Source: Chitinophagaceae bacterium (GTDB lineage: Bacteria > Bacteroidota > Bacteroidia > Chitinophagales > Chitinophagaceae). From it: a DNA stretch of 40,145 nt. The position numbers and the translations under genes are program-made. Below are positions 428 through 8,535 of this stretch, piece after piece (the first letter of the stretch is position 1; every line of letters begins with the position of its first letter). The notes beneath the pieces are model-generated. The model was not told where the DNA came from, searched no databases, and was given only the letters and a program-made list of their open reading frames with translations. The stretch lies in the NCBI GenBank assembly GCA_947453295.1, contig CANGGD010000008.1, positions 1-40,145 of the forward strand. The letters run 5' to 3'.

Positions 428-1060
428 TCATAATTTCCTAAATGTTAGATTAATCCTTAGATTTAAAATTTTAGATGTTTTAGGTATTTGATGTTGCCAA
501 AAATGCTGAGTTGTTCCCTTCATTAATAAAAAAGATCCATTAGTTAGATTGATATCAATTTTTTTTAAGTCTTTATTTTTTATATGCTTTAGTTGAAAAG
601 TTCTTGTTGCTCCAAAACTCACCGAGCCAATAACTGGGTTTTCTCCTAACTCTTTTTCATCATCTGCATGCCAACCCATACTATCATTTCCATTTCTATA
701 ATAATTCAACAGAACACTTGTGAAATTTACATTGCTAAGTGCCTCAATTCGTGATTTTATGAAAAGCAATTCTTCATTCCATGGGATTGGATTTAATACA
801 ATGCGAGAATAAGAATATTTTTTTTGTTCATCTCCATAAAAAGCTGTTAGTCTAGGTTGATTTATCTTTTTACCGAAGATCGATATTGCATATTGCTGCC
901 AATTAATTTTTTCTATTAATTTTTGTAATAAATTCTCACTCTCCAGAGCAGTAAAGAAGTTTTCACATAAAGTTATATCTGCATCAGGTAAATCATATTT
1001 GGTTATGTTTGGAGAAATTGAAGTGTCTTTCTGTTTTGTTGTTTCAAACAAATTCTTCAT
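428..1060 (-). CDS. AlkB-like 2OG-Fe(II) oxygenase (alkylated DNA repair)
   Basis: Motifs NYYRNGNDSMGWHADDEKELG (HxD), SFGATRTFQLKH and RINLTFR; first ATG at 1060 (ORF track begins at an upstream TTG). Confidence 0.88.
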   Translation of the reverse strand: MKNLFETTKQKDTSISPNITKYDLPDADITLCENFFTALESENLLQKLIEKINWQQYAISIFGKKINQPRLTAFYGDEQKKYSYSRIVLNPIPWNEELLFIKSRIEALSNVNFTSVLLNYYRNGNDSMGWHADDEKELGENPVIGSVSFGATRTFQLKHIKNKDLKKIDINLTNGSFLLMKGTTQHFWQHQIPKTSKILNLRINLTFRKL

Positions 1061-1085: not shown

Positions 1086-2735
1086 CTATCTCTTTGCAAT
1101 TTTATTTCCTGTATTTCGTTGTCGGCTACATTTAAAACGAAGGATTGTTTTACTCCTCAGTGCGCTGTGTTTTGTTGTACGCGAATTCATTCTTTTTCTC
1201 CACATTCTAAAACTCGATGGTAAGGAATGATTTCTCATGAAATCAATAACATCTTTTTCTTTCAATCCAAACTGAAATTCTATAGCTTCAAATGGTGTAC
1301 GATCTTCCCAAGCCATCTGAATAATTCGGTCTTTATCTTGTTCATTAAAAAATGAAGAGGCAGTAATTTTTTTTTCTACTTCTTGTTTTGAATTTTTAAA
1401 TTGATCAATTTTATTTTCTAACATTAATTTGATTTTATTTTTTTTATAGCTTAACCATAATTTTCTATATAATCCATTTTTATCGTATTCGTTGGTTTGT
1501 TTTTCAATATTAAATACACTTGCGCCTCTGGGATTATTACCCACTCCAGCTATATAAGCCCAGTTGCACCAATTACTACTTACATCATAATCTATTAACT
1601 GTTTTTCAAAATAGGCAGCTCCATAACGCCAATCTAATTTTAAATCGTGACATAAATAACTCGCAACATTTTGTCTGCCTCTGTTGCTCATAAATCCGGT
1701 CTGATTCAATTCATTCATATTAGCATTGATAAAATCATTAGTTGTTTGACTATTACACCAACTTTGAAATACTTTTACTTCGTGTTGGTTGACAATTATC
1801 TGACTTTTTTTTATTCCATTTATAATAAAATACTGATAGGGATATTTTTGCATCATAAATACAAAATAATCTCTCCATAATAATTCAAATACTAACCAAT
1901 ATGTAGATTCGTTTGCACAATTTGTTTTTTCATATTTTTTTATTTCATGATAAATGACCACAGGCGATAAACAACCCATTGCCAACCACGCTGAAAATTT
2001 GGATGAATAATTTTCTCCAATCAAGCCATTTCTTGTATTCTTGTATGATGCTATAGAATGAGTCTCATTTAAATACACATTTAGTCTTTTTTTTCCTGTT
2101 GTCTCTCCCCCATTATATTTTATGGCAGCACGAGAATCAAATAAAAAGTTTGAATCTTCTAAATCAAAAAGAAATGATAAATTAATTTTTTCGATTGGTG
2201 GAGATGAGATATTTATTGGCTCTGGATAAACCGCTCTTATTTTTGCTTTTCTTTCAACCTGAATTTTAAAATCAGTAAAAACATCTGGTATTTGTTTTAT
2301 TTCAAACGGCAAATCTTGTGTTTTATACAAATTGGCTGTTTCATAAACTTCTAAAACACAACTCAATTTTTCTACTGCTTTTGCAACTTTTTTTTGAGTT
2401 GCAATTTCTTCATATCCAACTTGTTTCTTTGTGTATATTTTTTGAGCCTTATACTTTTCTGCAATTTTTAATAGCTCCTCTTCAGGATTACCATACACAA
2501 CTAATAGTCCTGATCCTTTTGTACGTAAATTATGATCTAAGTCGATTATAGATTCTTTCAAAAACTTTTTCCTATGCTTTCCAATTTTTTTGAAACCAAA
2601 TTGGGTTGTTGTAAAATGTGACTCATCTATACAATATATGGGTATAACCTCATCACTTTCAGAAATTGCCTGATACAATGTTTCATTATCAAGCAATCTT
2701 AAATCTGTTGTAAACCATACAATAGTTCGTTTCAT
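1086..2735 (-). CDS. DASH-type cryptochrome/photolyase fused to C-terminal TIGR03643/DUF2805-like domain
   Basis: N-term KRTIVWFTTDLRLLDNETL, FAD-domain WRDYFVFMMQKY, NRGRQNVASYLCHDLKLDWRYGAAYFE, CNWAYIAGVGNNPR; C-term DRIIQMAWEDRTPFEAIEFQFGLKEKDVIDFMRNHSLPSSFRMWRKRMNSR...RFKCSRQRNTGNKIAKR. Confidence 0.9.
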   Translation of the reverse strand: MKRTIVWFTTDLRLLDNETLYQAISESDEVIPIYCIDESHFTTTQFGFKKIGKHRKKFLKESIIDLDHNLRTKGSGLLVVYGNPEEELLKIAEKYKAQKIYTKKQVGYEEIATQKKVAKAVEKLSCVLEVYETANLYKTQDLPFEIKQIPDVFTDFKIQVERKAKIRAVYPEPINISSPPIEKINLSFLFDLEDSNFLFDSRAAIKYNGGETTGKKRLNVYLNETHSIASYKNTRNGLIGENYSSKFSAWLAMGCLSPVVIYHEIKKYEKTNCANESTYWLVFELLWRDYFVFMMQKYPYQYFIINGIKKSQIIVNQHEVKVFQSWCNSQTTNDFINANMNELNQTGFMSNRGRQNVASYLCHDLKLDWRYGAAYFEKQLIDYDVSSNWCNWAYIAGVGNNPRGASVFNIEKQTNEYDKNGLYRKLWLSYKKNKIKLMLENKIDQFKNSKQEVEKKITASSFFNEQDKDRIIQMAWEDRTPFEAIEFQFGLKEKDVIDFMRNHSLPSSFRMWRKRMNSRTTKHSALRSKTILRFKCSRQRNTGNKIAKR

Positions 2736-4288: not shown

Positions 4289-4426
4289 TTATCTTTTATT
4301 TCTGCATGCATCACTACAATACTTTACCATGTCCCAATTTTTCTCCCATTTTTTTCGCCATGAAAATGGTCGGTTGCACACAATACAAATTTTAGTGGGG
4401 AGGTTTTCTTTTTTAACTGCTTTCAT
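4289..4426 (-). CDS. DUF2256-type small zinc-ribbon protein (45 aa)
   Basis: Read from minus strand: [45 protein letters not shown]; CxxC...CxxxC with the [23 protein letters not shown] signature; absent from supplied ORF track (below size cutoff). Confidence 0.88.
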
Positions 4427-4445
4427 CAAATGGTATACATATTTT

Positions 4446-5087
4446 TTAATTTATTTCAACAGGCATCTTATCAGTTTTAGCATATGACAACTTTGCTATT
4501 TTGTTGGAAGTGTGATAACTGTCTAAGCCTGATATTGTTATTGTTTCTGCTTTCTCTATGTCTATTGCACCATCTTGCAACAAACAATATTCAGGAACTA
4601 TGGCTTGAATTACCTTTCCGATAATCAAAATCGTATTATTTATTTTCAATTCGTGTTTTTCAACATATTCTACACCATATTTGATGAAACTTTCCTTTAC
4701 GTAAGGAGCTGAAATACCAGTGATAAACTCAGGAGTTAAACCAGTTGCATCAAATTCTGAAATATTTTTAGGATAGCGAGCAGATGTTTGATGTGCTTGT
4801 TTAAAAATATTTTTATTAATGTGATTGATCGTATAATACTTTGTCTCTAAGATATTTTCCAATGTATGACGCTCTGTTATATTTGGTCTGCTGATAAATC
4901 CAATCAAAGCCGGATTTGATCCAAGATGAGTTACAGAGCTAAAAATAGATAGGTTGATATTTTTATTTTTATCAATGGTTCCTATTAAAGATGCGCTTTT
5001 AAATCCTGTCAGCGAATTCATAAAAGCTGCTCTATATTGAGCTTCCATGTTTAAGATATCGCCATCCGATAAGTATTTAGAATGCAT
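4446..5087 (-). CDS. flavin reductase family protein (FMN-binding split barrel)
   Basis: ALEAQYR-like start ([55 protein letters not shown]...ERHTLENI). Confidence 0.85.
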
Positions 5088-7836: not shown

Positions 7837-8535
7837 ATGCTAAACTATCTTGTAATTGGAGCTTCTAGTGGAATTGGTGAAGAAATTGCAAAGCAACTAG
7901 CTGAAACTGGTAATTATGTAACTGCTACCTATAACAGTAAAATTCCTGTATATACAAATTCTAATATTCAATACCATCAATTGAATGTATTAGATGAAAT
8001 CATTTCTTTGGATTTTTTACCTGAGAATCTAGATGGTGTTGTATATTGTCCGGGTAGTATTAACCTAAAACCATTTGAAAGAATTAAACCCGAAGATTTT
8101 GAATTAGATTTTAAACTTCAGGTGACAGGTGCTATAAAAATTTTGCAACTTGTTTTACCAAGATTAAAAAAATCTGCAAATGCTTCTGTCGTTTTATTTT
8201 CTTCGGTTGCAGCCCAAACAGGATTTAGCTTTCATACACAAGTAGCTGCATCGAAGGGTGCAATTGAAGGATTAACAAAAGCACTTGCAGCTGAGTATGC
8301 TCCAAAAATAAGAGTGAATTGTATAGCGCCATCTTTAACCGATACACCTTTGGCCGCATCACTTATCAACAATGAACAAAAATTGGAAGCCAATTCATTA
8401 CGACATCCACTAAAAAGAATTGGACACACCAAAGACATTGCTAATATGGCAATATTTTTATTGTCTGATAAATCAAGTTGGATAAGTGCACAGATTATGC
8501 ATGTAGATGGAGGCATATCTTCTTTAAAAAGCTGA
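7837..8535 (+). CDS. SDR family oxidoreductase
   Basis: Rossmann GASSGIGEEIAKQLAE, SSVAAQTGFSFHTQVAASKGAIEGLTKALAAEYAPKIRVNCIAPS. Confidence 0.93.
   Translation: MLNYLVIGASSGIGEEIAKQLAETGNYVTATYNSKIPVYTNSNIQYHQLNVLDEIISLDFLPENLDGVVYCPGSINLKPFERIKPEDFELDFKLQVTGAIKILQLVLPRLKKSANASVVLFSSVAAQTGFSFHTQVAASKGAIEGLTKALAAEYAPKIRVNCIAPSLTDTPLAASLINNEQKLEANSLRHPLKRIGHTKDIANMAIFLLSDKSSWISAQIMHVDGGISSLKS

Follow-up and report, generated by a model that had tools for sequence, protein, structure and literature searches.

A Cry-DASH Reading Frame Continuous with a DUF2805 Domain in a Conserved Photorepair Gene Cluster of a Chitinophagaceae Bacterium

Results

A Gene Partnership and a Fused Frame

The analysis of a 40,145-nucleotide stretch of Chitinophagaceae DNA (the window) revealed a partnership between the DUF2805 family and photorepair genes that is well supported at the level of gene order and genome distribution. 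In the window as assembled, the DUF2805 domain is read as the C-terminal part of a cry-DASH protein (Table 1). As this fusion is tied to the length of a single A8 run, it is the conserved gene partnership, not the fusion, that is of lasting interest.

Table 1. Positions of the features in the window
Feature	Position	Strand	Evidence or remark
AlkB-like 2OG-Fe(II) oxygenase (PF13532), downstream	428..1060	minus	probable start ATG 1060
Fused ORF, 549 aa (cry-DASH, linker, DUF2805)	1086..2735	minus	ATG start
DUF2805/TIGR03643 domain, residues 469-539	1119..1331	minus	Pfam PF10985: E 3.5e-32, 111 bits (cut-off 22.5); NCBIfam TIGR03643: 108.6 bits (cut-off 66.55)
Linker, residues 431-467, Lys/Glu-rich	1335..1445	minus	sequences of relatives do not align to it
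Internal in-frame ATG (M438)	1422..1424	minus	would yield a stand-alone 112-aa DUF2805
A8 run (T8 on the plus strand)	1438..1445	minus	one base less or more breaks the fused frame
Cry-DASH part, residues 1-430	1446..2735	minus	TIGR02765: 516.5 bits (cut-off 317.05)
ATG spanning the codons TTA TGG of cry-DASH	1456..1458	minus	alignment and translations
DPRP photolyase-related protein (PF04244), 516 aa	2736..4286	minus	E 2.9e-74
DUF2256 (PF10013), 45-aa zinc-finger-like protein	4289..4426	minus	E 9.4e-23; 80.5 bits, above the cut-off of 25
Flavin reductase-like protein (PF01613)	4446..5087	minus	Pfam
SDR-family oxidoreductase, divergent; often a neighbour of DUF2805 elsewhere	7837..8535	plus	Pfam

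The Two Domains of the Fused Frame

The translation of the assembled sequence from 2735 to 1086 contained no internal stop, in agreement with the original prediction of a single unbroken frame running from cry-DASH into DUF2805. Judged by the profile searches, the N-terminal part is a true cry-DASH, as it scores above the curated subfamily cut-off and has both the antenna and the FAD domains. The crypto_DASH profile (TIGR02765) was matched at positions 1-428 of 431 by residues 2-428, while the Pfam domains DNA_photolyase (PF00875) and FAD_binding_7 (PF03441) were found at residues 4-165 (E 3.3e-35) and 283-440 (E 8.2e-37), respectively. The top solved structures matching this part, all of them cry-DASH proteins or related photolyases, were 6kii_A (E 4e-116), 1np7_A (E 4e-114), and 2ijg (E 2.5e-106). 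The match to the cry-DASH family extends over its whole length, but the window protein has about 120 additional C-terminal residues carrying DUF2805. The cry-DASH of V. cholerae repairs cyclobutane pyrimidine dimers (CPD) with a preference for single-stranded DNA (PMC5241685).

The C-terminal segment had been assigned to TIGR03643/DUF2805 from the letters alone, and the HMM search bore this out with significant matches exceeding both curated cut-offs. The PF10985 profile was covered completely (1-71 of 71) and the TIGR03643 profile at positions 2-72 of 72. Whereas DUF2805/TIGR03643 usually occurs as a stand-alone small protein, here it lies inside the 549-aa frame as assembled. The GC content of the linker between the two domains is 17%, compared with 30-35% on both flanks.

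Dependence of the Frame on the A8 Run

The residues ...LWLSY are followed on the coding strand by AAAAAAAA (window 1438-1445). When this run was changed in silico to A7 or A9, the frame was divided into a cry-DASH of 436 or 433 aa, respectively, and a free DUF2805 of 112 aa, which is also the length of the DUF2805 ORF in the relatives L067-L071. In the A7 version, the stop of cry-DASH and the start of DUF2805 overlap as TAATG. From its alignment with the relatives, we infer that the ATG within TTA TGG corresponds to the point where DUF2805 begins in most relatives of the genus; in the window, the frame opened by this ATG reaches a stop after four codons (MVKL).

Homopolymer reliability was assessed within the window, where the ORFs contain 16 other A8/T8 runs, three of them in the cry-DASH part, none of which visibly disrupts the frame. 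The contig carries long intact ORFs. Another long homopolymer lies in the linker at window 1367-1375 (A9 on the coding strand); with a change in its length, DUF2805 would likewise no longer be in frame with cry-DASH.

Two further origins of the junction were considered and rejected. Conserved programmed frameshifting in the family does not fit the aligned relatives, which have neither a common A-run nor a slippery site. A chimeric contig is unlikely, since the flanking gene order is matched in relatives such as L077; the DNA is also continuous across the junction, with 74-93% protein identity to relatives on both sides. The junction is thus either a lineage-specific fusion or a sequencing or slippage effect.

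Rarity of the Fusion

A true cry-DASH scoring above the cut-off was found in 11 of the 93 genus genomes, and DUF2805 adjoins it in all 11. The ten genomes other than that of the window have separate, neighbouring ORFs for the two proteins. In eight of these, the ORFs overlap by 16 nt and DUF2805 starts in a different frame within TTA TGG near the end of cry-DASH; the remaining two show a short gap (L072) and a 31-nt overlap (L076).

DUF2805 was surveyed in relatives (present in 29 of 60 genomes), the genus (50 of 93), the order (172 of 369), and the phylum (113 of 396), these overlapping sets holding about 300-320 genomes with DUF2805 in total. These surveys also cover the search for fusions across the Bacteroidota proposed with the original prediction. 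Among the matches listed, which for the order are all but about 20, no second cry-DASH-DUF2805 fusion was found, and every DUF2805 open frame except that of the window was shorter than 190 aa. The 80 named loci drawn by DUF2805 similarity likewise contained no fusion. The claim that the fusion implies direct physical cooperation is therefore not supported: the fusion was seen once, ten relatives keep two ORFs, and it depends on one base. A DUF2805-zf-NADH-PPase-NUDIX protein has been reported (PMC6856373); in this further DUF2805 fusion, a Nudix hydrolase takes the place of a photolyase.

The Photorepair Gene Cluster of the Window

The DPRP gene lies directly upstream of the fused ORF with zero gap. 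The DUF2256 ORF, located between the flavin reductase and DPRP genes, is missed by ORF lists with a 60-aa minimum. The AlkB-like ORF is open from the TTG at 1099. The order of flavin reductase, DUF2256, DPRP, cry-DASH, DUF2805, and AlkB-like genes is kept in genus relatives. We take VCA0809 of V. cholerae to be of the DPRP type. This (6-4) photolyase contains a [4Fe-4S] domain and is induced by blue light, under which it is highly expressed (PMC9852545, PMC5241685). Two photorepair ORFs of Synechococcus sp. PCC 7335 overlap by 11 nt and are co-transcribed (PMC9649867). That operon resembles the present cluster in its overlapping photorepair ORFs but differs in that both partners are photolyases, and the passages describing it make no mention of DUF2805.

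Association of DUF2805 with DUF2256 and DPRP

The co-occurrence of the three families was examined by Fisher tests, the p values of which ignore phylogeny. In the genus, DUF2805 and DUF2256 occur together in 48 genomes (totals 50 and 51; p 3e-20), and DPRP is absent from 10 of the 50 genomes with DUF2805. In the phylum, DUF2805 is found together with DUF2256 in 90 genomes (totals 113 and 125) and with DPRP in 92 (totals 113 and 133; p 7e-37), while DUF2256 and DPRP share 112 genomes (totals 125 and 133; p 7e-61).

The genes within 4.5 kb of DUF2805 were examined in the 80 loci mentioned above, a sample biased toward window-like sequences. Photolyase/cryptochrome genes were present in 37 loci, DPRP in 31, SDR in 27, and flavin reductase in 12. 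The expectation that DUF2805 is usually a stand-alone protein near photolyase genes agreed with these data, as a photolyase/cryptochrome or DPRP gene lay within this distance in 40 of the 80 loci; the other half had none. Photolyase-family genes are the most frequent recurrent neighbours of DUF2805 in the Bacteroidota, and further recurrent ones are FolE, TspO, glutathione peroxidase, MOSC, AlkB-like genes, and an unassigned family resembling SRPBCC proteins. The functional link, drawn from gene order and co-occurrence, would point at least as much to DPRP and DUF2256 as to cry-DASH. DUF2256, which was absent from the original prediction, is the more striking partner.

DUF2805 is also present on plasmids of Vibrio, Acinetobacter, Pseudoalteromonas, and Nostoc, where its neighbourhoods are looser; it was not found in the phages searched. 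On an Acinetobacter plasmid, it stands beside DUF2256 and pieces of a DPRP-like ORF. In the Acinetobacter nosocomialis plasmid record (L167:8397-9923), the DPRP-like sequence is split into three ORFs and is thus probably broken in that record. In the genus g41 of the family f25, a divergent DUF2805 copy was observed (mostly about 69-79 bits), and several of these genomes have neither a canonical copy nor DPRP. A protein of about 149 aa, unannotated and matching no Pfam family, is encoded directly upstream of DUF2805, mostly in marine flavobacteria (L118:9526-9972 and 13 other loci).

Nature of the DUF2805 Domain

The alignment of 80 DUF2805 sequences showed 17 invariant columns, R, K, and W among them, and near-invariant R, K, and H residues. 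The DUF2805 domain of the window is 93% identical to its nearest relative over 85 aa (dN 0.037, dS 1.58), while cry-DASH is looser in the same comparison (dN 0.16, dS 0.96). By these substitution rates, DUF2805 is under strong purifying selection, and the dN and dS values of the fused domain give no sign of decay.

In the AlphaFold model, the fusion has four helices between residues 465 and 517 (pLDDT about 90), followed by a poorly defined basic tail; the full-length model has a poor region at residues 300-413 and is uninformative on contacts between the domains. The Pfam family NirdL-like_HTH matched 31 of the 80 members weakly (best E 0.011). Foldseek found no match with E <0.5 in the PDB or among viral models (best PDB E 2.7), its sub-threshold matches including 2cyy (P. 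horikoshii PH1519) and GcrA 7ye1, and the sequence search against solved structures gave no relative. DUF2805 is predicted to be a small, basic, HTH-like helical domain. As the sequence and fold searches yielded weak HTH leads alone, DNA binding by this domain is an inference of moderate strength. The earlier suggestion of a DNA- or RNA-binding or regulatory partner of the cryptochrome is retained in part: the HTH-like core and the basic residues make nucleic-acid binding plausible. No functional report on DUF2805 or DUF2256 was found in the open-licence papers searched.

Discussion

Our best guess, held with about as much belief as doubt, is that DUF2805 binds nucleic acid as an accessory of a photorepair cluster that responds to light. 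The genes from flavin reductase to AlkB-like would then form one co-transcribed photorepair operon. Normally, DUF2805 has a gene of its own there, which usually overlaps the end of cry-DASH. Here, the two frames are joined at the A8 run and, as assembled, would be translated as a single chain, while a start at the in-frame ATG could still produce DUF2805 on its own. The basic, HTH-like protein may bind DNA and act in trans with the photolyases of the operon and with DUF2256, helping the photolyases to engage DNA through access to lesions or through local concentration. The linker of about 37 residues would tether DUF2805 to cry-DASH in the fused chain. It should be noted that a gene partnership alone is no demonstration of protein contact. 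As a tentative and rather doubtful elaboration, DUF2805 and DUF2256 could constitute a two-protein accessory module of DPRP/FeS-type photolyases and their cry-DASH neighbours, serving lesion access or the assembly of a photorepair complex. The polypeptide of the window would then be a natural fusion of enzyme and accessory.

Concerning the frame itself, a serious possibility, which we consider somewhat less than probable, is that the cell makes two proteins and that the A8 run was miscalled in sequencing or in the consensus, is polymorphic, or is a site of slippage. The products of the A7 and A9 versions, the TAATG overlap, the separate genes in the other ten genus genomes, and the uniqueness of the fusion among the matches listed all favour two proteins, but the visibly intact frames at the other A8/T8 runs speak against it, and the long ORFs of the contig argue against a sequencing error. 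This explanation is not mutually exclusive with the accessory role. The main functional rival, which seems unlikely to us, is that DUF2805 is a small transcription factor controlling photorepair genes under light or oxidative stress. Its HTH-like core, the lack of an enzymatic domain, and its clustering with the light and stress genes FolE, TspO, and glutathione peroxidase are consistent with such a regulator; the clustering may resemble LitR-type regulons, which contain phrB, cryB, and folE (PMC9758184). However, DUF2805 has no sensor domain, often lies within same-strand, operon-like runs with enzymes, and at many loci has no photolyase genes nearby. An action on RNA or nucleotides instead of DNA repair is improbable. 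The Nudix fusion mentioned above, a NudC-like ORF near DUF2805 on the Acinetobacter plasmid, and the grouping of DUF2805 with translation genes in a marine metagenome network (PMC3597751) point in this direction, but photolyase-family genes are the top recurrent neighbours in the Bacteroidota.

Gene order links DUF2805 and DUF2256, two very small families of unassigned function, to light-dependent DNA repair genes, and so does their near-identical genome distribution in the genus. If the two families are accessories, as the preferred explanation proposes, bacterial photoreactivation would involve more than single enzymes.

Several other genes were observed in the neighbourhoods. Directly downstream of DUF2805, photolyase-like proteins of 364-386 aa are encoded at L083:6033-7190 and L084:6226-7317. 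These match FAD_binding_7 only, with no PF00875, and perhaps belong to the uncharacterised family described beside the FeS-BCP photolyase in PMC9239080. A bacteriorhodopsin-like gene (PF01036; L075:485-1198) lies in the region around a photorepair operon, and a gene of L087 clusters with it. By its appearance, the gene at L068:621-2642 is a putative lycopene cyclase gene.
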